The notes beneath the pieces are model-generated. The model was not told the DNA's origin, made no database searches, and saw nothing but the letters and a program-made list of their open reading frames with translations. Below, piece by piece: positions 1 through 46,249 of a DNA stretch of 46,249 bases (position 1 is its first letter; the number at the start of each line of letters is the position of its first letter). Origin of the DNA: a virus. The stretch is taken from positions 1 to 46,249 of IMG/VR virus record IMGVR_UViG_3300018481_000033. One strand, given 5' to 3'. The translations under genes and the position numbers were made by a program.

Positions 1-162
1 AAGGTGTTCCCGAGCCTCCTCGACGCACTGGAATACTGGAAGCGGCAGAGCACCGTGCAGCCGCTCCGCGACGATGGCAAGCCCAACCGGCCATTGACGG
101 CGTATGGCGTCAACCCACAGCCCCGTAGACGCCCCGACCCAAAGGAGACACATGACCCCTGA
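1..162 (+). CDS. 3' end of an unidentified early-region gene
   Basis: The reading frame is open from the first base to a TGA at 160-162 and gives 53 residues that begin KVFPSLLDALEYW and end in a basic, Pro-rich tail. The start lies outside the window. I recognise no family. The stop overlaps the next small gene, whose AAAGGAG ribosome site (141-147) and ATG (152) lie inside this gene, so the two are probably translated together. The same-strand neighbours suggest an early or replication function, which is inference. Confidence 0.5.
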   Translation, partial: KVFPSLLDALEYWKRQSTVQPLRDDGKPNRPLTAYGVNPQPRRRPDPKETHDP

Positions 163-1214: not shown

Positions 1215-1514
1215 ATGGACACCATCGAGGCGAGCGCCGAGACGCTCATGCACCAAGCACCCAAGACCGTCGCCCTCTACCTGGAAAACGCGATCGCGGT
1301 GATCGACGCCGCCTTCGACGTGCCCGGGTACGCTGCCCAGCATCCCGCCCTGGTCGCGGCGTTCCTGGAGGCCTGCGTGCGCGACTGCGCGGCAATGACG
1401 CTCGCGGCCGCGGTACAGGGGCATGGCGAACACCTCTACAGCGCCTTCGAGATGTTCTACGAAGAGCTTCCCAGCCTCATCAAAGCCATCGGACTCATCG
1501 GATGCCCCGACTAG
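1215..1514 (+). CDS. Small helical phage protein (99 aa)
   Basis: GGAGG at about 1201-1205 precedes the ATG at 1215. The product is predicted to be almost entirely alpha-helical, with HPALVAAFLEACVRDCAAM in the middle, resembling small conserved hypothetical phage proteins. There is no signal peptide or clear membrane segment. Its last 13 bases overlap the start of the DNA polymerase gene, so the two are probably translationally coupled. The specific function is unknown. Confidence 0.7.
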   Translation: MDTIEASAETLMHQAPKTVALYLENAIAVIDAAFDVPGYAAQHPALVAAFLEACVRDCAAMTLAAAVQGHGEHLYSAFEMFYEELPSLIKAIGLIGCPD

Positions 1515-4498
1515 CGCACCCCGAGGGTTGCAGAGGCTGCGTACTGGACGAGCGCGGCGAAGGCTTCGCGCCCGCCGACGGCCCGGCCAACAGCTGGCTC
1601 CTACTGGTGGGCGAGGCGCTCGGCGTGGTCGAGGTCCTCACCGGCCGCCCGTTCATGGGCGACGCCGGCGGGATGCTGCGCCGGTTGTTGAACCTCCTGG
1701 GCTGGAAGCGCGAGGCGCTCCGCGTGCACAACGTGGTGAGCTGCCACCCGCCGAACGACTGGTTCGACGAGCGGGCGCCCTGGTACTACCCGGCGATGAA
1801 CCACTGCCCCTACCTGGAGCAGAGCTTCCAGGACGGGCCGCAGGTCGTGGTGACGATGGGACAGACCGCGCTCCGGCGGGTGCTGCACCTGGAGCACCGC
1901 AAGAAGGTCCGGGTGCAGGACTTTCACGGCACGATTCAACGCGACCCGACCGACCGCTTCTGGGTGGTGCCGACCTTCCACCCGAGCTTCCTGCAGCGGG
2001 GGGCGGTGAACCTGATCGGGACCGTGCTCTGGGATTTACAACGGGCGGAGTCTGCGCGCGACCACGGGCGGCCGCCGAGCGAGCACTCGCTGGTGGTGGA
2101 CCCGCCGGTCGAGTGGTTCAGGCGATGGGTGGACCAGGTCGTCGCCGCCCGCCGCCAGGACCCCGGCGCCTATCCGATCAGTAGTGACGTCGAGACCCCG
2201 GACAAGGCGGGCGGGCGGGACGAGGGTGAGATTACCGCGGACGACCAGAGCTATCAACTGCTCAGGCACAACGTCAGCTGCCATACGGATGAGGGCGTCA
2301 CGGTGCCGCACGCCGGCCCGTACCTCGACGAGCTGAAGCGGCTGTATGGGTCGCCCGGGCACATCTGGATGTGGAACCGGGAGTATGACTTCCCTCGGCA
2401 GGTCAGCTCGGGCCTGATGAGCGAGGCCGACAGCGTCCGGTGCGTCGACCTGATGTGGCTGTGGAAAGTCCTGCAGAGTGACGTGCCCCGGGGGCTGGGC
2501 TTTGTGGCGCCCTGGTACAGCGAGTACGGGCCCTGGAAGCACCTGGCCGACAGCGAGCCGGGGCTCTACGCGGCGATTGACGCCCTGCAGACCCACCGGG
2601 TCGGGTTCGGCATCATCAAGGACCTGCAGGCCCAGGGGATGTACCCGATCGCCATGCGGCACACGCATGAGCTGCTGACCAAGGTGCTGCGGCCCGCCCA
2701 GCTGGTGGGCGTGAAGGTCGACCGCCAGCGGCTGGTGGACTTCAAGCTGGAGCTGGCCGAGAAGGCCCGTGGCCGCCTCCAGGCGCTCGAAGCGGCGGTC
2801 CCCGAGTCCCTGGCCCCCCTGACCCCCAAGCAGGGCCTGACGCGCCCGCCAGCGGCCGACGTGCTCCATGTCAAGGCGAGCGCCTTCACCCGGAAGGGGA
2901 CCGTGCGGAAGGGCAAGCCGCTGCCCGAGATCAAGCAGGAGCTGTACACCCGGGCGATCGTGGTCGAGAAGCTCGTCCTGCGGGAGGTGCTGGTCTGCGG
3001 GAGCTGCGGCGCCCAGGAGATTCAGAAGCGCCACCGGTGCGCCGACAAGGCGTTGACGCCCGCGGTGGACGTGGCGGTGGCGACGGTGAGCCGGTGGTTC
3101 TGGCGCGAGCCGTTCAACCCGGACAGCGTGCCGCAGGTGCTCGCCTACATGAAGCACCGGAAGCACACCCCCGGGCGGGCGAAGAAGGGGCAGGCCGAGG
3201 CGACCACCAACCGCGAGACGCTGGAGCGGCTGGCGCGGACCACCAAGGACCCGTTCTACCAGGCGCTCCTCGACTACCGGGCGATCACCAAGGTCAAGGG
3301 GACCTATGTCGAGGGCACCGAGCGGCTGCTCGACGAGCAGGACCGGCTGCACCCGGTGCCGACCTTCAAGCCGAGCACCATGCGGCTGAGCTATACCGCG
3401 CCGAACATCACCAACGTGGTGGCCGACAAGGGCGGGGCCGAGGGGCTGGCGGCGGGCTTCAGGAAGTGCATCGTCGCCGAGCCCGGCTGCCGGCTGCTGG
3501 AGGTCGACTTCGCGGCGATCGAGGCGGTCCAGACCGGCTGGTGCGCCCGGGACGCGGAGTACTACCGGCTGGCGAAGCTGGGCGTGCACGCCGCGTTCGC
3601 GACCCATGTCCTGGGGAAGCCCTACGACCCGGCGGCCGATGACGTCACGCTGCGGGCGTATCTGGCGGCGGCGAAGAAGGCGCACCCGCAGGTCTACGAG
3701 CCGAGCAAGCGCTACATCCACGGGCGGAGCTACGGGCTGACCATCGCCGGCATGGTGCTGCAGTTCCCGCACCTCTTCCCGACGCACGCGGTGGCCGAGC
3801 GCTACGCCCGGATCTACGAGCGGATGGCCCCAGGCGTCGCCGCCTGGCAGCTGCAGACGCAGATCCGCGCCAGCCGCCAGCACTACCTGGGCGGGGCGGG
3901 CGATCACCCGTTCGCCTACAAGCACTGGTTCTGGAGCGTGTATAGCTACAAGCGCCTGACGGTCACGCAGTACTACCGGCTGGCGGCGAAGTTCCAGCGG
4001 CTCGGGCAGCCGGTGCCGTGCCTGGAGATCGACGGCCAGTACTTCCGGGTGAGCCTGGGCGAGGACGGCAAGCGGGTGCTGGCGTTCTACCCGCAGTCGA
4101 TTGCCGCCGGCGTGCTGAAGGAGGCGCTGCTGCGGCTGTTCGCGGAGCCCGACTCGCCAAGCTACCTGGGCGAGGTCTACTACGGGCGCACGCCGCTGCG
4201 CGCCCCGATCCACGACTCGATGCTGCTGGAGGTGCCACACAAGGCCTGGGACCGGGTGGTCGAAGTGGTGTGCATGGAGATGCAGCGGCCGGTCCTGGCG
4301 CAGCCGCTGCCCGAGAGCTGGGGGCGGGCGGGCGAGTATGTCGCGATCGGCGTGGCGGCGAAGGCCGGGGCCGACTGGGCGAGCATGGCGGAGATCCCGG
4401 TGCCGGGGTATGAGGCGGGCTGGGTGCCGGACCCGGGCGAGCCGGTGGAGGCAGAGGACGAGGACGACTGGAGCGACCTCGCCCGTGTGATTGCCTAG
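1502..4498 (+). CDS. DNA polymerase: UDG-like domain + 3'-5' exonuclease + family A polymerase
   Basis: This replicative polymerase has 998 residues. Residues about 5-180 resemble family-4 uracil-DNA glycosylase: GEALG at 37-41, TGRPFMGDAGG, HPSF at 160, and cysteines 10, 13, 81 and 102 in the spacing that binds an iron-sulphur cluster. The exonuclease has DxE (D229, E231), NxxxD (N292-D296) and YxxxD (Y356-D360), so it looks active. The polymerase has motif A DFAAIE at 669-674, motif B KRYIHGRSYG at 736-745 and motif C HDS at 904-906. A CGSCG...HRC cluster (C499, C502, H511, C513) forms an apparent zinc-ribbon insert. In motif B a histidine (H740) sits where classical enzymes have the O-helix lysine, and K736 is one turn earlier. 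The start overlaps the upstream gene and has no clear ribosome site. The length exceeds E. coli Pol I because of the UDG-like fusion. Confidence 0.92.
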   Translation: MPRLAHPEGCRGCVLDERGEGFAPADGPANSWLLLVGEALGVVEVLTGRPFMGDAGGMLRRLLNLLGWKREALRVHNVVSCHPPNDWFDERAPWYYPAMNHCPYLEQSFQDGPQVVVTMGQTALRRVLHLEHRKKVRVQDFHGTIQRDPTDRFWVVPTFHPSFLQRGAVNLIGTVLWDLQRAESARDHGRPPSEHSLVVDPPVEWFRRWVDQVVAARRQDPGAYPISSDVETPDKAGGRDEGEITADDQSYQLLRHNVSCHTDEGVTVPHAGPYLDELKRLYGSPGHIWMWNREYDFPRQVSSGLMSEADSVRCVDLMWLWKVLQSDVPRGLGFVAPWYSEYGPWKHLADSEPGLYAAIDALQTHRVGFGIIKDLQAQGMYPIAMRHTHELLTKVLRPAQLVGVKVDRQRLVDFKLELAEKARGRLQALEAAVPESLAPLTPKQGLTRPPAADVLHVKASAFTRKGTVRKGKPLPEIKQELYTRAIVVEKLVLREVLVCGSCGAQEIQKRHRCADKALTPAVDVAVATVSRWFWREPFNPDSVPQVLAYMKHRKHTPGRAKKGQAEATTNRETLERLARTTKDPFYQALLDYRAITKVKGTYVEGTERLLDEQDRLHPVPTFKPSTMRLSYTAPNITNVVADKGGAEGLAAGFRKCIVAEPGCRLLEVDFAAIEAVQTGWCARDAEYYRLAKLGVHAAFATHVLGKPYDPAADDVTLRAYLAAAKKAHPQVYEPSKRYIHGRSYGLTIAGMVLQFPHLFPTHAVAERYARIYERMAPGVAAWQLQTQIRASRQHYLGGAGDHPFAYKHWFWSVYSYKRLTVTQYYRLAAKFQRLGQPVPCLEIDGQYFRVSLGEDGKRVLAFYPQSIAAGVLKEALLRLFAEPDSPSYLGEVYYGRTPLRAPIHDSMLLEVPHKAWDRVVEVVCMEMQRPVLAQPLPESWGRAGEYVAIGVAAKAGADWASMAEIPVPGYEAGWVPDPGEPVEAEDEDDWSDLARVIA

Positions 4499-6258: not shown

Positions 6259-7683
6259 CTACTGCGGCGGACCGAGCACGCCCGGCACGGGGGGCGGGGT
6301 GCCGACCTGGTTCTGGGGGCGCTGACGCTGGCGGGCCGCGGCGCTGCCGGCGAGGGCGGCAGGCGGGAGCAGGCCGTACTTGCGGTAGATGTCGATCAGC
6401 GAGTCTTCGTACATCACGTAGTTGTGGGTGCGGCGCAGGGCGGCGCGCAGCTCGTTCTGCGCCTCCCGGATCTGGTCTTTCAGCCATTCCGTGTCGTAGG
6501 TGTTGCGCCGGTTCCCCTGTGCGATGTTCGCCTCGGTGGTCGCCAGCTCCTGGCGCCAGTGATCGAGCACGCCTTGCGCGTGCTTGGGGTCGGGGAGGCC
6601 GCGCGAGCCTTGGTCGAGATACCGCAGCCCTGGAATGCCCGCCTCACGTAGCTGCTGGGTAATCTCCGCCGACCGCTGCTGCGCGCCCAGCATCGCATCA
6701 CCCCCCTGCAGCGCGCGATACGCCGCGCCACCACTGGGATCGCGTTTCAGGAAATCCCCCTGGGCGCGCAGCGAGCGAGCGGCTCTCGGGTTGGTCGCGA
6801 GCATCCGCTCCATCGCCTCGATAACCTCGGGGCTTTGCTGGGACAGCGGTGTGTCCCAGTCGAGCAGTTCGGCGGGGTCGACCTGGAGGTTGACTTCGTA
6901 CATGTGCGCGCCCGGATGCGTGCGGAGCCCATCCCGCTCCGCAAGCTCCAACCACGACAGCTCGTCCTTCAGCCTGCGGATGGCCCCCGCCCCGCCCGGC
7001 TCGGCCCGCTCGGACAGCTCGCGGTGAAGGTCCGCGCGCACATGGTCGACGATCGCCCGTTCATCCGCGCGGGGGAAGCGCGCCCGCTTATCCGCCAACC
7101 GCCGTATCAGACGCGGCTCCGGGTCCAGCACGGGCGACCAGTACGGCACCGCACGAGGGACCCCGCCGATCTCGACGGTGGGCTTCGTGAACTCCTTGAA
7201 GTACTGGTCGGCGACCTCTTCCTTGCCACCGAAGTAGAGCCCGTGACTGTAGGCCTGCGCGCCCTGCCCTGTGCCCACCTTGGAGATGTCGAACTTGTCG
7301 AAGTTGTGGGGGGAGGCGTGAAACGCGGTAATGCCCCCCGAGCGGGTGGCGGCGAGCGCCTCATTGCCGGCGCGGCCAGCCGCCATCGCCGTGTCGATCA
7401 CCGTCTCGCCGACCTCCTTCCCCGCGCGTAGCCCGGCGCCGGCGACCCGCCCGCCGGGGACCAGCCCCCCGAGCGTGGTCACCGCCTCCATCGGGCCGAC
7501 CTCCCGCATCGGGTCAGCCGGGGCGCCGGTGATCCATTCGAGGATCCGCGACGACCAGGAGGGTGGCGGCGTCGCGCGGATCTGGGTCGGGCCGCGGACG
7601 CCGCCCCGCTGGAGGCGCTCCTTGGCGGCGCGCTCGGCGGCCTGGGTGGTGGCGGCGGTGCGGTCGAACCAGTCCTGTGGCAT
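6259..7683 (-). CDS. Polyvalent-type protein: shared N-terminal module + ADP-ribosyltransferase-like domain
   Basis: In this 474-residue product, residues about 33-117 match the module of the downstream neighbour (PPPSW, VPGGRVAGAGLR, ETVIDTAMAAG, GNEALAATR). A domain starting FHASPHNFDKFD (H122) and continuing GTGQGAQAYSHGLYFG (137-152) is the signature of the ART-PolyVal family, ADP-ribosyltransferases embedded in phage and conjugative-element polyvalent proteins. The remainder is long, helical and charged. Family knowledge suggests modification of host targets soon after DNA entry. The target is unknown. Its place directly after a transglycosylase-bearing internal protein supports packaging in the virion, which is inference. 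Confidence 0.75.
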   Translation of the reverse strand: MPQDWFDRTAATTQAAERAAKERLQRGGVRGPTQIRATPPPSWSSRILEWITGAPADPMREVGPMEAVTTLGGLVPGGRVAGAGLRAGKEVGETVIDTAMAAGRAGNEALAATRSGGITAFHASPHNFDKFDISKVGTGQGAQAYSHGLYFGGKEEVADQYFKEFTKPTVEIGGVPRAVPYWSPVLDPEPRLIRRLADKRARFPRADERAIVDHVRADLHRELSERAEPGGAGAIRRLKDELSWLELAERDGLRTHPGAHMYEVNLQVDPAELLDWDTPLSQQSPEVIEAMERMLATNPRAARSLRAQGDFLKRDPSGGAAYRALQGGDAMLGAQQRSAEITQQLREAGIPGLRYLDQGSRGLPDPKHAQGVLDHWRQELATTEANIAQGNRRNTYDTEWLKDQIREAQNELRAALRRTHNYVMYEDSLIDIYRKYGLLPPAALAGSAAARQRQRPQNQVGTPPPVPGVLGPPQ

Positions 7684-22470: not shown

Positions 22471-23067
22471 CTACTCGACATCGGGGTCGATCGGCAGGAC
22501 GCCCGGGCAGGCGCTGGTGCGCGGCGGGCGGGTGGTCGGCGGGCGCCTAGTCCACAGCTCGACGATCGCCTGCGTGGTGTGCACCACCGCGCGCTGCCCG
22601 CCCCAGACCTCGACGATCGCATGGGTGACGCGCGCCGGGACGGGCGGCACGGTCCACAGTTCGACGGCGACCTGGGTGGCGCGCAGGGGGATGGGCGTCC
22701 AGGTCCACAGCTCAATCGCGACCTGGGTGGCGCGGGTGGCGGCGGGAGCGGCGGACCAGGCTTCGACCGCGAGCTGGGTGACCCGCAGCGCCGTCTCCGG
22801 CGGGGACGTCGACAGCAGCTCGACGACCGCCTGCGTCACGGCGGCGGGGGTGGCCGCCCCGACGGTGGGCGTGAGTAGCTCGACGACGCTCTGTGTGGCG
22901 CGCGCCGCGGCGAGCGGCCGGCTGATCGTTTCGGTGAGCGCCTGGGTGACGCGCGCGGCCGCGAGGGGCTGGGTGAGCGTCTCGACGACCGCCTGGGTGA
23001 CGCGCCCGTCGGCCCGCGCAAGGCTCAGGACCTCGACGACCGCCTGGGTGACGCGCCCGTCGGCCAT
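22471..23067 (-). CDS. Tandem-repeat protein, about ten RVTQAVVE units (198 aa)
   Basis: Nearly the whole protein is built from about ten units of 15-21 residues with the core R(V/A)TQ(A/V)(V/A)VE(L/V)(L/W). Examples are RVTQAVVEVL, RVTQALTETI, RATQVAIELW and HTTQAIVELW. Late units favour tryptophan after the core and early ones leucine. Each unit should give one beta-strand, so a solenoid or beta-stack is plausible. The end TSACPGVLPIDPDVE carries the CPxx(F/L)PIDP tag of its neighbours. Similar RVTQ or RVSQ repeats occur in other phage proteins of unknown role. A fibre or surface function is inferred from location. Confidence 0.65.
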   Translation of the reverse strand: MADGRVTQAVVEVLSLARADGRVTQAVVETLTQPLAAARVTQALTETISRPLAAARATQSVVELLTPTVGAATPAAVTQAVVELLSTSPPETALRVTQLAVEAWSAAPAATRATQVAIELWTWTPIPLRATQVAVELWTVPPVPARVTHAIVEVWGGQRAVVHTTQAIVELWTRRPPTTRPPRTSACPGVLPIDPDVE

Positions 23068-25993: not shown

Positions 25994-28900
25994 CTAGCTG
26001 GCCGACCGATATGTGACCGAGCCGTGAAGGTACGTGCCAGAGGCATAGTTATTCGCGTGCATTTGGGTGAGGCCACCGCCGGGACCAGCGGTCGCGTACA
26101 GGTACATGCGGAAACTCCAGGGAAACAACAAGCCCACGATGGTGGAAACCGCCACCGCCAGCCCACCCCAATACATCGTGCAGGACCAGTACCCACCATC
26201 TGCTTGATGCGGGAAATCGTCAATCACCAACACGTCGTCCGTCGCACCCTTGGCCGCAATGCCAATGGAGAAGCTGACGGTGACCATGCGACCCACCTTG
26301 GTCCAAGTGCCCGACCGCGTGTTGTAGGTCTGCCCGGTTTCCCCGGCGGCACCGCGCAAGTACGGCAACCACTCGCCATTGGTGCCCAGACGCGCATCAG
26401 GGACAGTCCCACTAGTCAGATATGAAGCGTTCAGTGGAGTTGTATTTAAGCCTGCATCCGCCTGCACCGTTGCATAGGAACGAACGGCATTCGTGAATGT
26501 ATTCCCGCTGAGATGGGTCTCACCATTGAAATAGTTTGTACCGCTGAAGTTATTTCCATTTCTAAGTGCAACATTGGCTGACAGGCGCGCATCGGGGACA
26601 TGCCCGGCGATCAGCGAACCGGCGATAGACAGATTGCCTGCTCGGTCAACAACGAGCAAAGAGCCAACAGTGTTCTCATAGATGTGAAACCCATTGGCGT
26701 AGCTGATTAACCGGAAAGCCGCGTTGTAGCTCAGTTCATGCAGGTTAATCCCCGCCGTGCCTGTGCCTTGAAAGACGTGCTCGCCGCCTGAGAATGTATT
26801 CGCTGGGCTCTTCAACGCGACGTTCGCGGGTAGCCGAGCATCAGGAATCGTGCCCCCCGTGAGGTACGAGGCGTTCAACGGTGTCGCGCCAAGTCCAGCG
26901 GCGGTCAGGACTCCGTTTCTGGCGATGGTGACGTAGCCCGTCGCGACCGTGATGGCGTCATTGACCGCTTGAATGAACAGGTCACCCGGCCCGGCCTGAT
27001 GCACGAGAATTTCCCACAACCCCTGATCGACCGCGACGCCCGTGTTGTGCAACTGCAGACGCGGGTACGGCGTGTTCGTCAGTCGGACGTTGCCGGTCAC
27101 GTTCAGGCCGCCGGCGTCGATGCGCGCGATCGGCGTCGGGCTGAAGACCGTCCCCGCCGCGCCGGGACTCGGGCCGCACGCGAACACGATGGACCCCGGT
27201 GCCGCCTGCACGGCGCTGTACGCACTGTTCGCGAGGTTCTTCCAGCCGACGCCCCCGTGATGCACGACGTTGTGCATCAAGTACGTGCCGTTGAGTGCTT
27301 CCCCCGGCCACGACTGAATCACGCCCCGGTCGCCGAACTGCGCGTAGCCTTGCGCCTGCGGCACGTTGATCGCGGGGAGGCCGTAGTTCGCCCCGTTGAC
27401 GACGACCGAATTACCGACGACCAGCGAGTTCGCCACGCTCATCTGGTTATTCGCTTTGCTGAACGACGCGATGTTGACCCAGCCGCTTTCCACGTCGTCC
27501 TGCCCGTACACGATCAGGTTCTGCGACTGCGACATCAGCCGGTACTGCGACGTGTTCGCCGGTTGCGTCGTGTCGAGCAGATAGAGACTCGCGTTCGCGT
27601 TGCGGATGTACTGCGGCTGCGAGAAGACGTTGTTGACGTTCAGCCACGCATTGTTCAGCAGGGCATCGCTGCCGCCGGGTTGGTGCGTCGCCTGGTGCGG
27701 GACCAGCGCCGCGGGGTCGCCCGGGTCGCCCTTCGGGCCTTCTGGGCCTGGCACGCCTTGGATGCCCTGCGGCCCCTGGATGCCCTGGACGCCTTGCGAC
27801 CCGGGGACACCGGGTTGCCCTTCGGGTCCGGTCGCGCCGGTCTCCCCGATGGGGCCTTCCGGGCCGGTCGCCCCAGGCTCGCCGGGGTCGCCGGGCTCGC
27901 CTTGGATGCCCTGCGGACCCTGAGGACCTTCCGGGCCGGGCGGGCCTTGCGCGCCAGGCGGGCCCTGCTCCCCGACCGGGCCTTCGGTCAGGACCAGCAC
28001 CGTGATGCGCGTGTTGTGCGACATCGAGCCGTTGCCGCCAGGCCCGTCCTGCGAGAGGAAGGTGACCTGGACGATGAACCAGTCGCTCATCTCCACGACG
28101 CCGTCGATCCGCCACTCCTGGTGGGTGGTGGCGAGGTCGGTGTCCTGAATCACCAGCCGGGACGCCGGCGGGGTCATCCCGAAGAGCACATGCGCGTCGA
28201 AGCCGTCGGTGGTGAGCCAGTCGACGTAGAGCGCGGTCGCCTCCTGCTGGACGACAGCGTTCCAGCGGAGCATCCCGGTGCCGGGGTCCTGCGACTGCTG
28301 CGACTGGGTGTCCGCCCGGTAGGGGAAGGCGCTGGACGAGGGGGCCGACTCGCCTTGCGGGCCCTCGGGGCCGACCTCGCCCTGGATCCCCTGGATCCCC
28401 TGGATGCCCTGGATGCCCTGGGGACCCTCGGGCCCGGTGGCCCCGACGGCGCCGGGCACGCCCTGGATCCCCTGCGGGCCGAGCGGGCCGGTGGGGCCTT
28501 CGGGGCCGCCGGGGCCAGGCACGCCTTGCGTCCCCTGCGGTCCCAGGGGGCCGACCGGGCCGATGGGGCCCGTCGGGCCGGTGGGGCCAATGGGGCCGGT
28601 CGGGCCGATCGGACCGGTGTCGCCCTCTGAGCCGGTCGCGCCCGTCGGCCCCTGGAGCCCCTGGGGGCCTTCTGGGCCGGTTGGACCGGTGGGGCCCAGG
28701 GGACCGGCGGGGCCTTCGGGTCCGGGGTCGCCTGCGGGCCCTGGCGACCCGGGGGCCCCCTCCGCGCCGGCGGGGCCGACCTCGCCAGGCTCACCCTGGG
28801 CGCCGGCCGGTCCGGGTAGCCCGGTGGGGCCTGGGGGGCCAGTCGCGCCGGTGGGGCCAACCGGGCCGAGGTCCCCCTCCGGGCCTGGGACGCCCTGGGG

Positions 28901-29662
28901 GCCAGGCGGGCCAGCCGGACCGGTGGGGAAGGGACCGACATCCACCCAGTCGCCCGCCGCGTCGTCCCAGACCCAGACGTGGTCGGTGTCGTCGGCGATC
29001 CAGCAGTCGCCCGGCTCGCCGGTCGGCGGGAGGTCGCCCGCCGACGGGACGGTGCCGCGCAGGGTCAGGGAGCGACCGGGCGGGCCTTCCGGGCCCTCGG
29101 GGCCGACCGGGCCGAGGTCGCCTTGCGGCCCCTGTGGACCGGTCGCGCCGGTCGGGCCGGCGGGCCCCGTGGCGCCGGTCGCCCCCGTGCCGCCGGTGGC
29201 GCCGGTCGGGCCGGCGGGGCCTGGTGCACCCGCAGGGCCCGCGGGGCCGGTCGCGCCGCCCGGGCCCACCGCGAAGGTCCCGTCCGCCCGGAGGAACAGC
29301 AGGGTCCCGCCGGGGTAGCCACTGAGCGCGGTGACCGGCAGCGGGTCGGTGCCGCCGGCGCGGTGGGTGGCCTGGTGCGCCGGGAGGTCGCTCGGCGAGA
29401 GCGGCTTGAGCACCACGTTCGGGGAGAGCCGCGCGTCGGCGAGGGTCCCGCTGGTGATCTGGCTGGCGTTGAGCGGGGTGGTCCCCAGGCCGCCGGGGGC
29501 GGTGAGGACGCCGCCAATGGTCAGACTGGCGGCGAAGATCGCGTCGACGTCATCGTAGATGGAGTCGATGAACGCCTTGTTGACGATGGTGCCGCTGGTC
29601 AGGTCTCCGGTGTCGTCGCGGAGGGTGTCGAACCAGGTGCGGGAGAGCGTCGTTGGAGCCAT
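25994..29662 (-). CDS. Collagen-like tail fibre/spike (1222 aa)
   Basis: GGGGGAG precedes the ATG at 29662. The N-terminal 130 residues probably attach to the virion. Three Gly-x-y collagen-like blocks follow (about 135-197, 247-438 and 561-650). They are separated by a small [16 protein letters not shown] domain and by a globular domain (about 440-560). The C-terminal half is a beta-rich tip with repeats such as [15 protein letters not shown] (four related copies in the protein) and two HQATHxxGGxD motifs flanking the collagen part. The tip is coded by DNA noticeably richer in A+T than the rest, consistent with exchange of the receptor-binding end. Trimeric fibre function is well supported by family knowledge. 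Confidence 0.9.
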
Positions 29663-40163: not shown

Positions 40164-40727
40164 CTAGCTCCCTCCCCGGTAGAAGATCTCATCGCGAATC
40201 CGGTCGACCACCAGGCGAATCTCCTGCTCGATGGTGTGCCCGCGCTTGGTCGCCCGGTAGGCGATCTCGCTCAGCTGCCCGGGCGTGAACTCCAGGCGCA
40301 CGTCGCCGATGTGAATCGCGGCGAGCCGCTCGACCGCCTGCACCAGCACGGTCGGGATCTGCGTGTTGCCGACGCCGAGGGTCTGCTCCAGCCGCGCGCA
40401 GTCGGCCGGCGAGAGCACCACGCCGATCGGCGCCACCAGGTCGTACTCGAGCCTGAAGCGCGCCGGCGAGAGCACGTCGAGGGTGTGCACGCCGTTGATC
40501 ACCGCGTAGTCGCCGGGCTCGGCGTGCGCGGTGCGGCCGTCGACCAGCAGGATGTCGGCCGGCGCGGTGAAGGCGTAGGCCTGCAGGCCCTTGGCGGCGG
40601 GGCGCACCGCGACGCGGGTGAGCGCGGCCGCCGGCGCGTGCGCGATCACCTCAGGCTCTCGCGCGGTCGTCGAAGAAGAGGCCGGCGTCGTCGCGGCCTT
40701 GATCGAGATCTTCGGGGAGGGCGACAT
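40164..40727 (-). CDS. Unidentified protein downstream of terminase (187 aa)
   Basis: I chose the ATG at 40727 because GGAGGT lies upstream. It overlaps the 3' end of the terminase gene by 77 bases. The first part is Ala/Pro/Thr-rich and disordered. The centre is beta-rich with ILLVDGRTAHAEPGDYAVIN and RFRLEYDL, and the C-terminus is helical with TPGQLSEIAYRATKRGHTIE. The GDYAVIN core resembles small beta-barrel domains of unknown role. No family could be assigned. Confidence 0.55.
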   Translation of the reverse strand: MSPSPKISIKAATTPASSSTTAREPEVIAHAPAAALTRVAVRPAAKGLQAYAFTAPADILLVDGRTAHAEPGDYAVINGVHTLDVLSPARFRLEYDLVAPIGVVLSPADCARLEQTLGVGNTQIPTVLVQAVERLAAIHIGDVRLEFTPGQLSEIAYRATKRGHTIEQEIRLVVDRIRDEIFYRGGS

Positions 40728-42963
40728 GGCTACTGACCTCCGGGTCATCCACTTCCTCCGCGGTCAGCGCGGAGTTGCGGTAATCGGGAATGGGGGTGTC
40801 ACGCTCCAGCGCCAGCTGGTCGAGCGCGTGCTTGCGGCGGCGCCGCTCGGCGATCGGTTCGACCTCGCCGCCGCTCATGCGCCAGGCGACGTAGAAGCCG
40901 ATGGCACTGGCCATCACCGCGTCGTCGTGCTGGCCGCGCGCGGCTTCGGCCTCGCCGATGGTCGACATGGTGACGAAGTGGCGCAGCTCGCCGCGGGTGA
41001 TCGGTGAGTTGAGGACGTAGTCGGGCAGCTCGCTGAGCGTGTCGAAGGTGGTGATGGCGCCGTAGAAGCTGGCCAGGAGCAGCGGGCGCGTGCGCGGCGA
41101 GGTCACCCAGCCGATGCGCGTGGAATACCGCCGCTCGGGCGAGGCGGCGTCCGCGTACTCCCAGACGTAGAAGTGGTGATAGCCCAGGTGCAGCTGCAGG
41201 GTGTCCTGGGTCGCCAGCCCGTGGTTGTTGGTCTCGATCGCCGCGAGCGCTTCGATGCCGTCGCTGTCGGTGTAGTAGCGGCCGATGGCGTCGCAGACGA
41301 AGGCGAGCGCTTTCGGGTCGAGCCGGTTGCTGACGTACTGGGCGACCTGCTCGGCGGGGTCCTCCATGGTCGGCTGGCGGATCACGTCGATGACCGAGTA
41401 GTCGAGGCCGAGCCCATCACTCACATCGACGCTGAGGACGTAGTGGCGGCTGCCGCGGACGCGCGGATACTCCCAGATGGCCAGGCCCGCGTTGCGGAGG
41501 TTGGGGAGGTCCTTCAGCTCCGCCGGGTCGAGGCGGCGGAAGCCGTAGCCGGGCGGGACCGGGTGGGCCTCGGCTGCGAGCGGCGAGCCACTCCCTGCCA
41601 CGCGCGGAGCCAGTGGCGGATATGGTCGAGGGCGCGGACCACTGCCGCCAGGTCCGCGACCAGCGCCTGGTGTGCCGCCAGGAGCCGTGTCGCGTCGGAG
41701 CTTGGCGATGTCGAGCGCAGGCTCGACGGCCCAGACGTCCTGGAGCGGGCGGAGGCTGCCGGCGCGGTCGATCGCTTCGAGCTGTTCGAGGGTGAAGATC
41801 GAGCGGCCCGCGTACTGGAAGCACTCCTGGTCATCGGCCGGATACTCCTTCAGAAATTTATAGAGCTGGCCCTTCGACTCGTAGAAGCGCCGGGTGGTCT
41901 CGTACCAATACAGCTGGTCGCGGGTGAGGGTGACCGTCCGGCCGCCGAACCAGCGCGGGGAGTCGCGCTCGTTCTTGACCGCGTGCGCCAGGGTGGAGGC
42001 GGACGGGACCCAGGGCGTGGGCGCGGGCAGGGAGTACTTGGTCGGCTCCGCGCTCCACGGGATGAACACGTTGTGGAAGCGGCCGACACCCTCGCCGGTC
42101 GCCAGCCAGTGACGGTGCCACCAGTCGCCGGCGAACTCCGCGGTCGCCTCGTAGAGGACCAGGGTGTCGTTGGCGTAGGGGATGGCCGGGAGGAGCGCGG
42201 TGTCGAGCTGCTCGGGGTTCTCCCAGGTGGGCAGCTCGCTGATGTGCACCACCGAGAAGGTCTGGCCGCGCCCGATCGCGCCCTTCGAGCCCTCGACGCC
42301 GGAGGTCGCCTGCAGCGCGCCGCGGGTCGACTTGCCCCAGGCGGTCTTGAGGAAGCACTGATTGACCAGCGACAGCTCACGGTTCTTGTTGAAGTAGACC
42401 TTGGCCGGTTTCAGGAACCAGGGCAGCTGGTCGTAAATACGGACCACCATGCGGAACAGATACCCGGCCTGGTCCTCGACGTCGGCGCCGCTCAGGGCGC
42501 GGATGTGCGTGCGGGTGACCAGGCGGTGCGCGACCAGCGCCTCGCTGAGGGTGGAGACGCCGAGCTGCCGGGCCTTGAGGATGTTGAGGAGGAGACCGTC
42601 GGGCGAGCCGCTGTCGGCGTTGGCCTTCTCGATGCGCGCGAGCTGGTCGAGCACCAGCTGCTGCGACTCCCAGAGCGGCGAGAGCCGGCGCAGCCCGTGG
42701 CCCTCCTCGTCGATCCAGCAGAAGCGCTCGGCGAACCACGGGAAGTCGTAGACCACCCGCAGGCGCGCGGTGGCGACAAAGGTCTGCTCCTCCTCGATGA
42801 GCGCGCGGCGGGGCGTGCCCGACTCGTCGACCGCCTGCATGACGCTGGCGGTGAGGGTGGCCGCGTCACTGACCGAGTAGGCCGGCATCCCGGACGGGAA
42901 CACCGCGCGGAACTGCGCGTTGATCTCGGCTTCGTCCTGCGCGATCAGGTCCGGGTGATACAT
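40651..42963 (-). CDS. terL: Terminase large subunit (770 aa)
   Basis: The ATPase has a Walker A-like KARQLGVST (130-138), Walker B-like SVVHISEL (237-244) and a YEATAE coupling segment (271-276). The RNase H-like nuclease has D513 (SVDVSD), D558 (VCDAIG) and HDD at 679-681. A Pro/Gly-rich stretch (about 427-470) lies between them, but codon positions there favour the +1 frame, which reads a more natural helical LLAAHQALVADLAAVVRAL; see finding. The first residues are helical. The protein packages DNA with the small subunit encoded two genes upstream. Length is longer than average for this group because of that linker. Confidence 0.9.
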   Translation of the reverse strand: MYHPDLIAQDEAEINAQFRAVFPSGMPAYSVSDAATLTASVMQAVDESGTPRRALIEEEQTFVATARLRVVYDFPWFAERFCWIDEEGHGLRRLSPLWESQQLVLDQLARIEKANADSGSPDGLLLNILKARQLGVSTLSEALVAHRLVTRTHIRALSGADVEDQAGYLFRMVVRIYDQLPWFLKPAKVYFNKNRELSLVNQCFLKTAWGKSTRGALQATSGVEGSKGAIGRGQTFSVVHISELPTWENPEQLDTALLPAIPYANDTLVLYEATAEFAGDWWHRHWLATGEGVGRFHNVFIPWSAEPTKYSLPAPTPWVPSASTLAHAVKNERDSPRWFGGRTVTLTRDQLYWYETTRRFYESKGQLYKFLKEYPADDQECFQYAGRSIFTLEQLEAIDRAGSLRPLQDVWAVEPALDIAKLRRDTAPGGTPGAGRGPGGSGPRPRPYPPLAPRVAGSGSPLAAEAHPVPPGYGFRRLDPAELKDLPNLRNAGLAIWEYPRVRGSRHYVLSVDVSDGLGLDYSVIDVIRQPTMEDPAEQVAQYVSNRLDPKALAFVCDAIGRYYTDSDGIEALAAIETNNHGLATQDTLQLHLGYHHFYVWEYADAASPERRYSTRIGWVTSPRTRPLLLASFYGAITTFDTLSELPDYVLNSPITRGELRHFVTMSTIGEAEAARGQHDDAVMASAIGFYVAWRMSGGEVEPIAERRRRKHALDQLALERDTPIPDYRNSALTAEEVDDPEVSSHVALPEDLDQGRDDAGLFFDDRARA

Positions 42964-42967
42964 GGCG

Positions 42968-43189
42968 CTAGGGCTGCTCCAGCGGCTCGAAGTTCTCCCG
43001 GAAGTAGGCCGCCGACACCAGCCACTGGTCGTCGTGGTTGACCGGGTTGCGCGCCACCATGTCGCCGGGCTGGGGCGAGCCGTTCTCGGTGTCGACCGGG
43101 GACACCGAGACGTTCGACAGGTCCTCGCCGGGGACGTAGGGCCGCAGCTCGGCGTAGGCGCGCCGGCGATACCGCTGGAACGCAGACAT
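42968..43189 (-). CDS. Small conserved-type phage protein (73 aa)
   Basis: The sequence MSAFQRYRRRAYAELRPYVP ... PQPGDMVARNPVNHDDQWLV ... YFRENFEPLEQP is a compact protein whose GDMVARNPxNHxDQWLV core I recognise as a recurrent phage motif. It lies between the terminase subunits and shares its start with the end of the upstream gene (43189). The function is unknown. Confidence 0.65.
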   Translation of the reverse strand: MSAFQRYRRRAYAELRPYVPGEDLSNVSVSPVDTENGSPQPGDMVARNPVNHDDQWLVSAAYFRENFEPLEQP

Positions 43190-44064
43190 CACAGAGGCTC
43201 CTCCTGCTGATTCAGCTCGTCGGGGGGCTCGCGCTCGTCCTCGGGCAGCTCCACCGGCGGCGCCTCGAACGGGAGCGGGACGTCCTCCTCGGTGAGGACC
43301 ACCGGCGCGGGCGTGCCCGCGTTGCGGCGGCGTCCGGGGCTGAAGAGCAGCTCGCCGACCGCCTGCTGGAGCTGTTCGAGCGCGCCGGCCGTGGGAGCGC
43401 TGAGCGCGCTGGCGCTGGCGGCGACCGCGGTGGTCTGGGTGACCGTGACGCCTCCGCCGCCCTTCCGGGTGAGCGCGCCGAGGTCGAGCGCCAGCTTCTG
43501 GCGGTCGAGGTCCGGCTCGGTGAGCACCTGGCCGGTCCCGGCGCAGGTGAGGCACGGCGCGGCGTCGAGCCCGGGGGACACGCCCTGGCAGGCGGGACAC
43601 ACGCACGGCTGCGGCAGCGCACGGGTCATCACGTCGGCCACCACCGCGGGGAGCTTCGCCGCGATGGCGTGGGTGGCCTGGAGGTGCGCCTTGACCAGCA
43701 GCGCCCGGCGATAGGCGACAAACAGGTCCGCGAGAGTCAGGCCGGCCATCACGCAGAGCCGCCGCAGGCTGTAGCGGCGATAGCGCGGGTCGAGCAGCAG
43801 GTCGACGACCATCTCGACTTCGGGCGCGGTGGAGGCCACCGTGAGCACGTCAATGAAGCCCCGACGGCCGCCGACCTGCTCCGCGAACGCCTCGATCGCC
43901 TCGGCATTCAGCTCCAGGTCGGTCTCGCTCACCTGCACCTCGGGCGCGCGGACGCCGGCCGGGACCAGCGCCCCGGTGCGCGGCGGACGGCCCAGGCGCT
44001 TGCCGGAGGCGGTGAGACGCGGCACGCGCGGCAGCGTCGCGGATCGGGGTGGCGGGGTCGGCAT
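43189..44064 (-). CDS. Terminase small subunit-like protein (291 aa)
   Basis: I use the ATG at 44064 (MPTPPPRS) with GGGAGC upstream. A TTG start at 44079 is less likely. A helical core (RRYSLRRLCVMAGLTLADLF and a following helix) resembles the DNA-binding part of small terminase subunits. A DnaJ-like zinc motif (CVCPACQGVS ... CLTCAGTG) follows, then a helical and acidic C-terminus. It is encoded just upstream of the large subunit, as expected. Confidence 0.7.
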   Translation of the reverse strand: MPTPPPRSATLPRVPRLTASGKRLGRPPRTGALVPAGVRAPEVQVSETDLELNAEAIEAFAEQVGGRRGFIDVLTVASTAPEVEMVVDLLLDPRYRRYSLRRLCVMAGLTLADLFVAYRRALLVKAHLQATHAIAAKLPAVVADVMTRALPQPCVCPACQGVSPGLDAAPCLTCAGTGQVLTEPDLDRQKLALDLGALTRKGGGGVTVTQTTAVAASASALSAPTAGALEQLQQAVGELLFSPGRRRNAGTPAPVVLTEEDVPLPFEAPPVELPEDEREPPDELNQQEEPL

Positions 44065-44068
44065 AGGG

Positions 44069-44302
44069 TCAGCTCCCAAAGCGTGAGCGAATGATCCGGT
44101 GCCCGAGCATCGGCGCGGCGATGACCCCGGCGACCTGGGGCGGGTGCTGGTGCGGCAGGACCACCGGGGGCGGCTGCGCCTGGAGCCAGCGCGCGACCTC
44201 CGCCGGGTCGGGCGTGGTCACCGCGGCAGGCAACGGCGCCGGCGCGGGCGTGGGTGCGGCTCGCCGACGCGCGCGACGCGGGCGTGTCCGGCGCCGGGTC
44301 AC
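44069..44302 (-). CDS. Arg/Pro-rich small protein (77 aa)
   Basis: A GTG start (44302) has GGAAGGGG upstream and overlaps the preceding stop (GTGA). The N-terminal half is Arg-rich and the rest Pro-rich, with VARWLQAQPPPVVLPHQHPP. The basic start suggests DNA or terminase contact. No family could be assigned. Confidence 0.55.
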   Translation of the reverse strand: MTRRRTRPRRARRRAAPTPAPAPLPAAVTTPDPAEVARWLQAQPPPVVLPHQHPPQVAGVIAAPMLGHRIIRSRFGS

Positions 44303-44679
44303 CGGGCCCCTTCCGTCAACCGCGCCAGCTCCGCCTCGCGCGTGGTGAGCCGCTCAGCCAGGTCGTGCGTGCTCTCGTCGGCGAGGTACTGGAGGACCTC
44401 CTCGTCCGAGGGCGTGTGCCCGGTGGCCCGGTGCGTGCGCTCGATGTAGTCATCCGCGAGCGCCGCGTGCGCCGGGTCGAACGCCGTCCACCCGCTCTCC
44501 CGGGCCACGCGCGCCGCGTCGGTGGGGGGCGGGGCCGGTGGCGCGAAGGCCTCCGCCAGGCGCCCCAGCAGGACGTTCTGGCGGTCGAGGGCCTGGCCAA
44601 TCGACGCCAGGTCGCGACTCAGGCGGCGGAGCAGGAGCGCGGCGGTCAGGCGGCGCAGCGGGCGGAAGGGAGCGCGCAT
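44299..44679 (-). CDS. First late-region gene, helical protein (126 aa)
   Basis: The protein has a basic start (MRAPFRPLRRLTAALLLRRL), then helices with LDRQNVLLGRLAEAF and a charged C-terminus containing DEEVLQYLADESTHDLAERL. No ribosome site precedes the ATG at 44679. The S1 element lies 37-51 bases upstream, so this is probably the first gene of a leftward transcript. The function is unknown. Confidence 0.6.
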   Translation of the reverse strand: MRAPFRPLRRLTAALLLRRLSRDLASIGQALDRQNVLLGRLAEAFAPPAPPPTDAARVARESGWTAFDPAHAALADDYIERTHRATGHTPSDEEVLQYLADESTHDLAERLTTREAELARLTEGAR

Positions 44680-44715
44680 CGGGTGCCGGGAGGATACGCA
44701 CCAGCCCTGGGGGCC

Positions 44716-44730
44716 TGTCTAGATCCCCCT
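44716..44730 (-). promoter_or_regulatory. AGGGGGATCTAGACA element, site S1
   Basis: Same 15-base word as at 36301-36315. A CCCCCG-CTCG-CGGGGG hairpin (44731-44746) lies directly upstream on the minus strand. The first late gene starts at 44679. Best candidate for the leftward late promoter. Confidence 0.55.
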
Positions 44731-44774
44731 CCCCCGCGAGCGGGGGCCGAGCAGGCGAGCGGGACCCCTCCCCG

Positions 44775-44796
44775 AAAATTTTTGATGGGAAATTTT
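44775..44796. promoter_or_regulatory. AT-rich inverted repeat AAAATTT / AAATTTT
   Basis: AAAATTT (44775-44781) and AAATTTT (44790-44796) form an inverted repeat in a GC-rich setting, about 100 bases upstream of the first leftward gene. It may be a protein-binding site or part of a promoter. No -35/-10 pair could be assigned with certainty. Confidence 0.4.
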
Positions 44797-44870
44797 GCTG
44801 AGTCCGGGCGCGGGCCCTCCCGCCGCCCCGCCCCCCACCCTCGCGGACAATCGCCCCCGCCTACGCCCCG

Positions 44871-44987
44871 CCAGCTGGCCGCGCCGCCCCGCCAGCTGGA
44901 GGCGCCCCGCCAGCCTGGGGCGTACCGCTCCCGCCAGCTGGAGAGCGGGCCGGCAGGCGAGCGGATCGGCGGGCCGGCGCCAGCTGG
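44871..44987. repeat. CCAGCTGG palindromes
   Basis: CCAGCTGG occurs at 44871-44878, 44892-44899, 44934-44941 and 44980-44987, with a CCAGCCTGG variant at 44910-44918. GCGGATCGGC is repeated at 44961-44970 and 44991-45000. Clustering of a perfect 8-bp palindrome suggests a regulator-binding array. Confidence 0.65.
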
Positions 44988-45052
44988 CGGGCGGATCGGC
45001 CGGCTGGCGGCGGATGGTAGTACGGCTGACTACGGATCGTCGTCAGGTGGTA

Positions 45053-45115
45053 GCGGGCGCCTGGGTCCAGGGCCGGCCGGCGGCGCGCCTGGACGGCGGG
45101 CGCCTGGGTCCAGGG
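45053..45115 (+). repeat. 20-bp direct repeat GCGGGCGCCTGGGTCCAGGG
   Basis: Two exact copies, 45053-45072 and 45096-45115, are 43 bp apart (start to start). GGGCCGGCCGGC also recurs nearby (about 45070 and 45134). Direct-repeat architecture next to the GTGCAG iterons suggests a replication or regulatory array. Confidence 0.7.
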
Positions 45116-45173
45116 TCCAGGGCCAGGGTCCTAGGGCCGGCCGGCAGGCGGCGCCTGGACCGGCGGCGCCGGC

Positions 45174-45307
45174 GTGCAGAAGTGTGCAGCCCGTGCAGAT
45201 CTGAGCACCGCGTGCAGCAACGTGCAGCTGTGTGATGTGCAGATATGACCCTGGGAACTTGTTCTGACAGAGTGTGCAATCACGGGCAGTAATCACTGTA
45301 ACTGCAC
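45174..45307 (+). repeat. GTGCAG cluster 1 (iteron-like)
   Basis: GTGCAG occurs at 45174, 45184, 45193, 45212, 45222 and 45237. GTGCAA (45274) and an inverted CTGCAC (45302) extend the array. A GTGCAG-n3-TGTGATGTGC composite here is nearly repeated in cluster 2. Confidence 0.65.
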
Positions 45308-45462
45308 TAGATGCTCAGCTTTGCACAAGCCTGGGAAGGCCCTGTAGAGGCACCTAGCGTGCCCGTACAGCGTGGCAGTCTCCGACCCTGCCCTACCCCT
45401 GGACCCCTATGTAGACTTCGCCCTGGCGGGCAAATCCCATAACCGGACACCTGTATAGCCGC

Positions 45463-45538
45463 GTGCAGTTTGTGATGTGCCGTGGCGTGCAGAAGCGGGC
45501 AGTGTGCAGGCCTGGGCAGTGGCGTGCAAGGCTTGCAG
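45463..45538 (+). repeat. GTGCAG cluster 2 (iteron-like)
   Basis: GTGCAG occurs at 45463, 45487 and 45504. Variants are GGGCAG at 45497 and 45514, GTGCAA at 45524 and TTGCAG at 45533. It shares CGTGCAGAAG and TGTGATGTGC words with cluster 1. It lies 150-230 bases upstream of the DUF932 start. Confidence 0.65.
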
Positions 45539-45539
45539 G

Positions 45540-45574
45540 TTGACAGCCTCGCCGGTTTTGATCCATCCTATAGG
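45540..45574 (+). promoter_or_regulatory. Possible rightward promoter (weak)
   Basis: A perfect TTGACA (45540-45545) lies next to GTGCAG cluster 2. The best -10-like words, CATCCT (45564-45569, 18-bp spacing) and TATAGG (45569-45574, 23-bp spacing), are poor in sequence or spacing, so this is only a candidate for DUF932 expression. Confidence 0.25.
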
Positions 45575-45694
45575 CCGGTATTTCGTTCGACCGGGGCCGG
45601 CGTCAGGCAATCCCGCCAGACGCGCCCCCTACAACCGAAACCCGGCCGGCCCTGACAGGCGGGCAGCGGGTCAGCAGAGAAGGATCACCAAGCC

Positions 45695-46249
45695 ATGGCA
45701 CACAACCTCAATTACAGCGACGGTCGGTACAGCTTCGCCTATCAGGACGCCACCCCGTGGCACACAGAGGGGCAGCGGATGAAGGCCGGCGCCAGCCTGG
45801 ACGACGCCCTGGACGCCGCCGGCCTGCGGTACCAGGTCGACACAGAGCCTATCTACCTGAAGGACGGCACCCCCGTGCTGGGACAGCTGGCGATCGGCCG
45901 GCGCGGTACGCGCGGCCTGCTGCCGTGGGCGGTGGTCGGCGACGGGTACAAGGTGGTCCAGGGCGCCAGGGAGACGCGCGGCGACGGCACCGGCTGTACC
46001 ACCGACATCCTGCGCCCGCTGCAGGAGCTTGGCTGCAGTGCGGCGGCACTGGGCGCGCTGGGCCAGGGAGAGAAGGCCTGGGCGTTGATGAAGCTGCCGG
46101 ATGCGACGGTGGCGCCGGTCGACGGGGACGACGTGCGGGGCTATTTCCTGCTGCACTGGGCGCACGATGGCAGCGGCAGCGTGGTCGGTACGCCCACGCC
46201 GATCCGGGTGGTCTGTCAAAACACCCTCAACGTCGCGACGGCAGGCGCC
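45695..46249 (+). CDS. DUF932 (phage/plasmid-like) protein, 5' part
   Basis: GAGAAGGA at 45677-45684 precedes the ATG at 45695. The 185 residues that fall in the window begin MAHNLNYSDGRYSFAYQD, then ATPWHTEGQRM, PWAVVGDGYKVVQ and finally RVVCQNTLNVATAG. The RVVC(Q/N)NTL motif is diagnostic of DUF932, a family common in phages and plasmids and of unknown biochemical role. The gene continues beyond the window. It is divergent from the late genes and probably starts the early transcript. Confidence 0.85.
   Translation, partial: MAHNLNYSDGRYSFAYQDATPWHTEGQRMKAGASLDDALDAAGLRYQVDTEPIYLKDGTPVLGQLAIGRRGTRGLLPWAVVGDGYKVVQGARETRGDGTGCTTDILRPLQELGCSAAALGALGQGEKAWALMKLPDATVAPVDGDDVRGYFLLHWAHDGSGSVVGTPTPIRVVCQNTLNVATAGA

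Follow-up and report, generated by a model that had tools for sequence, protein, structure and literature searches.

The virus record (IMG/VR IMGVR_UViG_3300018481_000033) is 46,249 bases long, is apparently linear and was analysed over its whole length (the window). It encodes a collagen-type tail fibre, SU10-type adaptors, a terminase and a family-A DNA polymerase. Near its right end, open reading frame lists and gene calls define one long non-coding gap (44680–45694), found at the same junction in relatives, from which the genes read outward in both directions. To the left lie a small conserved helical protein of 126 aa (44299–44679, minus strand), a TerS-like protein (43189–44079, minus strand), so named from its position and predicted helical N-terminal domain, and the terminase large subunit (40651–42963, minus strand). 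To the right, the first gene of the early arm encodes a DUF932/TIGR03299 protein (45695–46249, plus strand) and is truncated by the end of the contig 555 bp after its start codon, leaving its first 185 codons. A preliminary description of the sequence had drawn attention to an interval within this gap (44860–45540) as gene-free and lying between divergent units, and this is the case.

Structure-based searches were conducted on the two proteins nearest the gap on its left side. The TerS-like protein had no match at E ≤ 0.001 in PDB or BFVD and none at Z ≥ 5 with VIA-align, where the best score (Z 4.3) was to unrelated proteins and the small terminase 3zqq_A ranked 45th (Z 2.3). The 126-aa protein was without a match in a structure search of PDB. 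Elsewhere in the window, a single 998-aa frame (1502–4498) joins the family-A DNA polymerase to an N-terminal domain of the uracil-DNA-glycosylase superfamily, a collagen-repeat, tail-fibre-like protein of 1222 aa is encoded at 25994–29662, and a 34-bp exact direct repeat, with copies 51 bp apart, occurs within a reading frame of the structural arm (22981–23066).

A search with the terminase identified 51 related viral loci, and five near-full-length relatives (G001–G005) of 69.7–72.3 kb were used to establish the layout of the genome. All five have an early arm read rightward and a structural arm read leftward, which diverge at the gap and converge 29–38 kb beyond it, just past the polymerase gene. 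Four of the five carry identical overlaps of 109–127 bp at their ends, which look like assembly closure. The layout is best explained by a tailed phage with a circular map of approximately 70 kb, and since the arms diverge at the gap in relatives of this size, most of the early (rightward) arm is missing from the window. The small conserved gene and the TerS-like gene precede the terminase in most loci. No cultured relative with similar DNA was found by nucleotide search, and all protein matches of the terminase and polymerase were below 60% identity, mostly 22–31% among the matches listed. No relative of the terminase that might indicate a host through a prophage was present among the genome contigs searched. 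In the orientation of the window, the plus strand is G-rich over almost the whole circle in four of the five near-full-length relatives, with G003 balanced; in those four the early arm shows little skew and the structural arm is strongly positive.

The gap of the window contains three kinds of repeat, each of them well above chance. Four CCAGCTGG palindromes had been described and were located at 44871, 44892, 44934 and 44980, within a repeat block (44868–45010) that also has an inverted-repeat arrangement. The whole window holds eight copies, four of them in the described interval, against a shuffle mean of 1.48 for the window and of 0.08 for the intergenic sequence (maximum 2 in 500 shuffles). 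The 20-bp direct repeat GCGGGCGCCTGGGTCCAGGG is exact at 45053–45072 and 45096–45115 (plus strand), and a repeated 20-mer was found in none of 300 shuffles of the gap. The third kind consists of the hexamer GTGCAG in two plus-strand clusters. The clusters are as described; the count of more than ten hexamers holds only if one-base variants are included (for example GTGCAA at 45274 and 45524), the exact copies numbering ten, nine on the plus strand (45174, 45184, 45193, 45212, 45222, 45237, 45463, 45487 and 45504) and one on the minus strand (45302). Cluster 1 (45174–45242) has six exact copies, mostly 9–10 bp or a multiple apart, and cluster 2 (45463–45538) has three exact copies together with GGGCAG, GTGCAA and TTGCAG variants about 10 bp apart. 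The composite words CGTGCAGAAG (45173, 45486) and TGTGATGTGC (45231, 45471) are common to both.

Six GTGCAG copies in 69 bp exceed the maximum of two per 70 bp in 40 shuffles of the whole window, where any hexamer reached at most five. Hexamer clustering alone is not unique, since a coding cluster of TCGTCG (33985) likewise has six copies per 70 bp and the collagen-like gene has 350-bp clusters denser than those of GTGCAG. The nine same-strand copies span 336 bp with spacings mostly near 10 bp or its multiples; the phasing of cluster 1 is weak (Rayleigh p 0.06 at period 10, with several periods tried).

Local alignment of the gap with those of relatives placed the best-conserved sequence at 44,790–44,862, directly to the left of the reported repeats. 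The interval of the preliminary description missed this most conserved part of the gap, which is just to its left. This part belongs to a single-copy element (44775–44853) composed of an AT-rich AAATTTT, the motif CTGAg.CGGGyGCG, a C-rich tract and CTCGCGGACAAT. A profile of the element matched 28 of the 31 terminase loci with more than 2 kb of upstream sequence, L027, L030 and L036 having no match despite this length, and a single copy is present in each of the six records searched over their full length (the window plus the five near-full-length relatives). In all hits it adjoins the terminase operon, upstream of the terminase genes. After 12 duplicate hits from the same or near-identical records had been left out, 26 non-redundant sequences were aligned (the set of gaps used below is also without L014), and in these the distance from the CTGA half to the GGACAAT half is near-constant and the intervening bases are variable. 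A conserved RNA structure was ruled out, as RNAalifold gave no consensus on either strand for the 26 sequences and Rfam had no match in 44500–45900; the element thus looks like a DNA site.

Its location beside the terminase operon, single copy and fixed geometry, together with a resemblance to the pac site of phage P22, indicate that the element is probably a pac-like site for the start of packaging. The P22 pac is described as a 22-bp sequence in a review (PMC9611059). This 22-mer scored 18.8 bits against the family profile, at the left half of the element, a score reached by none of 5000 mononucleotide shuffles, 2000 dinucleotide shuffles or 5000 random 22-mers; the comparison was post hoc, being chosen after sight of three reference sites in the same passage of PMC9611059. 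Identity to the 22-mer is 16–17 of 22 in L016 and L013 and 13 of 22 in the window's own element, with other window positions scoring 14 of 22. The P22 site also adjoins terminase genes but lies inside the TerS gene according to that same passage (PMC9611059), whereas the family element is intergenic, extends further (about 68–78 bp) and carries CTCGCGGACAAT as another conserved half. Each of the 26 non-redundant contigs continues across the element without ending inside it, which fits headful packaging. With respect to a cos site, at which contigs would be expected to end, the contig of L014 ends ~73 bp beyond the element.

To the right of the element, the position of a repeat block is conserved among relatives and its wording is not. 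Of 25 loci, 13 have repeated short words that begin 10–40 bp to the right of the element: CCAGCTG in seven relatives as well as the window, CGCTGG in a further three loci and GTGCAG in two (L022, L032). Local repeat density is high in most relatives' gaps and the words differ, with CCAGCTGG present in the gaps of 10 of 25 relatives against 1.1 in shuffles. Helical phasing of the block is weak (best p 0.015 at 10.5 bp, six periods tried, from 28 spacings between visually selected sites, nearly overlapping additional copies being excluded). Non-conservation of the repeats had been named beforehand as evidence against a control region. It applies to GTGCAG and the 20-bp repeat and not to the CCAGCTGG block, whose position and, in part, wording recur. 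More than two copies of GTGCAG were found outside the window only in L022 (six) and L032 (three), and no GTGCAG array occurred in 80 DUF932 loci outside the family, so that an array conserved across relatives could be ruled out. Three phased GTGCAG are present in at least 120 unrelated stretches of viral contigs. Clusters of ATGGGC in L009 and L048, considered as a parallel, proved to encode Met-Gly within a Gly-rich reading frame.

The wording of the repeats follows the first early gene. Mean identity of this gene was 0.482 within a word class and 0.283 between classes, compared with 0.542 and 0.539 for the TerS-like protein and 0.570 and 0.569 for the counterparts of the small gene at 44299–44679. 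The word classes comprised 13 loci and the A/B comparison for the first early gene nine (L006 and L028 had none), with L045 an exception to the link. As the wording tracks the first early gene and not the TerS-like gene, the repeats appear to belong to the early module, whose border would lie between the element and the repeats; repeats and gene adjoin, and linkage alone could give the same association. In most loci this first early gene belongs to the DUF932 type; in L022 and L024 it encodes an AAA ATPase.

A further feature of these gaps is a dif-like Xer site (GTCTGATAA, 6–7 variable bases, TTATGTTAACC), which occurs in either orientation 210–400 bp right of the element in 14 of 25 gaps (L004, L006, L007, L009, L012, L020, L022, L028, L032, L033, L040, L045, L046 and L052). 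The central bases vary among relatives, a pattern more in keeping with multimer resolution than with integration into a host dif site. One tyrosine integrase was found in the five near-full-length relatives, in G002, where the dif-like site is absent. The window has two direct 28-bp dif-like copies on the minus strand (285–312 and 528–555), 26 of 28 bases identical and with the same central CCGGGA, ~1 kb ahead of the polymerase gene, next to a tRNA-Thr (573–649); G005 has a dif-like site at the same place. The sites recovered by the profile were those used to build it, and the scores of the window pair (17.0 and 16.7) are no better than those of the top two reversed-sequence controls (18.3 and 16.0), so support for the pair is the near-identity of its two copies.

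At the right end of the array lies a probable rightward promoter (45540–45569, plus strand), with TTGACA at 45540–45545, an 18-bp spacer and a weak -10, CATCCT (45564–45569). The TTGACA is conserved: it occurs on the plus strand in the gaps of 15 of 25 loci and on the minus strand in two, against a shuffle mean of 2.6, and the fuller pattern TTGACA-16..18-TANNNT is present in 6 of 25 gaps against a shuffle mean of 0.04. The window's -10 does not fit TANNNT, and a promoter scan called none at 45540–45569 at the threshold of the tool. Cluster 2 fills the 76 bp before this -35 in ~10-bp steps, ending at 45538 where TTGACA begins at 45540. Around the same promoter other loci have other words, namely TGCGAG pairs in L008, a TGACAG palindrome with repeats in L007 and CACAGG in L020, as would be expected of diverging operator specificities.

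The repeats are most likely switches of the early-gene promoter and not a replication origin, and the reading of the GTGCAG array as an operator or activator array of the early rightward promoter is the one we favour, at a probability that we place a little short of even. The earlier likening of the region to operator arrays is supported by the divergence of the arms in five relatives, the conserved rightward promoter and the abutment of cluster 2 on the -35. Under this reading, the gap would be a cis-acting hub of 1 kb with, from left to right, the pac-like element, the repeat block of the early module and the early rightward promoter. A candidate phage-encoded regulator, which we infer as the reader of the hexamers, may occupy neighbouring copies along approximately one helix face, immediately before the -35 at cluster 2 and some 300–365 bp upstream at cluster 1, possibly with looping between the clusters. 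Its binding, whether activating or repressing, would set the start of early transcription. Arguing against the operator reading are the lack of conservation of GTGCAG, the weak -10 of the window, the weak phasing and the distance of cluster 1, near which no second promoter was found. No regulator gene for the array was found in the contig, whose early arm amounts to the first 185 codons; an HTH protein is encoded in the early arm of G001. The array is comparable to those of phage early promoters in having a short word repeated up to the -35, with words differing among relatives. The usual phage operator is palindromic, whereas the window's word is a 6-bp direct repeat.

The preliminary description had also suggested a replication origin with a duplex-unwinding element. 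On such a reading, initiators would bind the GTGCAG arrays, and the intervening segment would melt for a phage initiator or DnaA to load the replication machinery. We regard this as unlikely. Repeats in a gap between divergent arms, which travel with the early module, would suit an origin, as would same-strand direct repeats in a non-coding region, such as iteron origins have. In relatives, the 1.8 kb to the right of the element contain the DnaA box TTNTNCACA at 6.6 times the density found elsewhere (8 in 38.8 kb, compared with 11 in 353.6 kb), and L020 has three. However, these eight boxes are raw counts from 5 of 26 loci, the enrichment is partly compositional because the gap is less GC-rich than the genes, and TTNTNCACA occurs nowhere in the window. 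The box-like words right of the element were TTTTCCACA, TTATGCACA and TTTTGCACA, in the gaps of five relatives (L020, with three, L013, L015, L008 and L033). The segment between the clusters (45246–45462), put forward as a duplex-unwinding element, has 58% GC against about 70%, and is thus lower in GC without being AT-rich; the one really AT-rich tract of the gap (about 44,772–44,797) lies outside the reported interval. Iterons of Rep-type origins are roughly 20 bp, whereas the hexamers are short and 9–10 bp apart, with no AT-rich segment, no DnaA box and no initiator gene at hand in the contig.

GC skew, proposed as a check on the origin, was calculated for the five near-full-length relatives. 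A turning point does lie near the element in four of the five, but it is a maximum of the detrended cumulative skew and not a minimum, the opposite of the usual sign for an origin. In these four it is within about 2.1 kb of the element, at 860 in G005 (element at 885), 587 in G002 (972), -41 in G003 (172) and 1,105 in G004 (3,189); in G001 it is at 7,426 with the element at 195 (~7.4 kb off). The minimum is 22–46 kb from the element. The turn coincides with the switch in gene direction and can be ascribed to it, so skew cannot decide on an origin.

A packaging site comprising the whole block, with the element as the point of cutting and the CCAGCTGG and GTGCAG repeats as binding sites of the terminase small subunit, as proposed for the direct repeats of SPP1 pac, is unlikely, and somewhat less probable than an origin. 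As described in PMC4737164, the SPP1/SF6 pac region adjoins the small terminase gene and takes in both promoters and repeats, the latter differing between related phages. The family is alike in having repeats with a promoter near the terminase and wording that varies among relatives, and unlike it in that the element separates the window's repeats from the terminase genes, and the repeats track another gene. The single-copy element, placed ahead of the terminase genes in 28 of 31 loci, the repeats that start 10–40 bp to the right of it in 13 of 25 loci and the location of GTGCAG at exactly that position in L022 and L032 would all suit a packaging block. The wording of the repeats argues the other way, since TerS-like identity is equal within and between wordings over all pairs, and the TerS-like protein of L017 (CCAGCTG) is 83% and 81% identical in its predicted DNA-binding part to those of L015 and L013 (CGCTGG). 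The GTGCAG clusters themselves lie 320–690 bp from the element, beside the promoter.

Neutral growth of repeats in a fast-evolving non-coding gap, with GTGCAG words that have no function, is improbable in our estimation. It would account for the repeat-rich gaps of most relatives, each with different words, and for a GTGCAG array nearly private to the window's phage. Against it, the copies are short and same-strand and are not units of tandem slippage, nine of them are without a base change though their spacers differ freely, and the array stops exactly at the -35. An equally small chance is given to a broader proposal, in which the hub stacks a pac-like site, an Xer (dif-like) site, word-swapping repeats and an early promoter, DUF932/TIGR03299 itself reads the array as initiator or master switch, and swaps of the repeat word go together with swaps of DUF932 type, the pair forming a specificity cassette like Rep and iterons in plasmids. 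The least probable reading, which we consider very unlikely, is a partition site bound by a ParR- or omega-like protein in a plasmid prophage: in plasmid R1 parC a promoter is flanked by two clusters of ~10-bp repeats, the window likewise has same-strand ~10-bp repeats in two clusters with an adjacent promoter, and the dif-like sites of the family suggest a circular replicative prophage, but no par gene was found among 30 early proteins scanned in G001 and G002 (part of their early arms), most of the early arm being absent from the window.

Each layer of the gap has known counterparts, in pac sites, operator arrays and the SPP1 pac repeats that vary between relatives (PMC4737164). In the portions available of the open-licence literature on dif-like sites of tailed phages, phage DUF932, packaging sites and this virus group (including PMC3025954, PMC9611059, PMC4737164 and PMC9503643), there was no description of the gap of this family. 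The analysis locates the control sites, and probably the packaging site, of an abundant family of uncultured soil phages of ~70 kb. The dif-like sites suggest a group of tailed phages that uses host Xer recombinases. If the link between repeat wording and first early gene is true, it would provide a testable role for DUF932, a domain common in phages and plasmids and without a known function.
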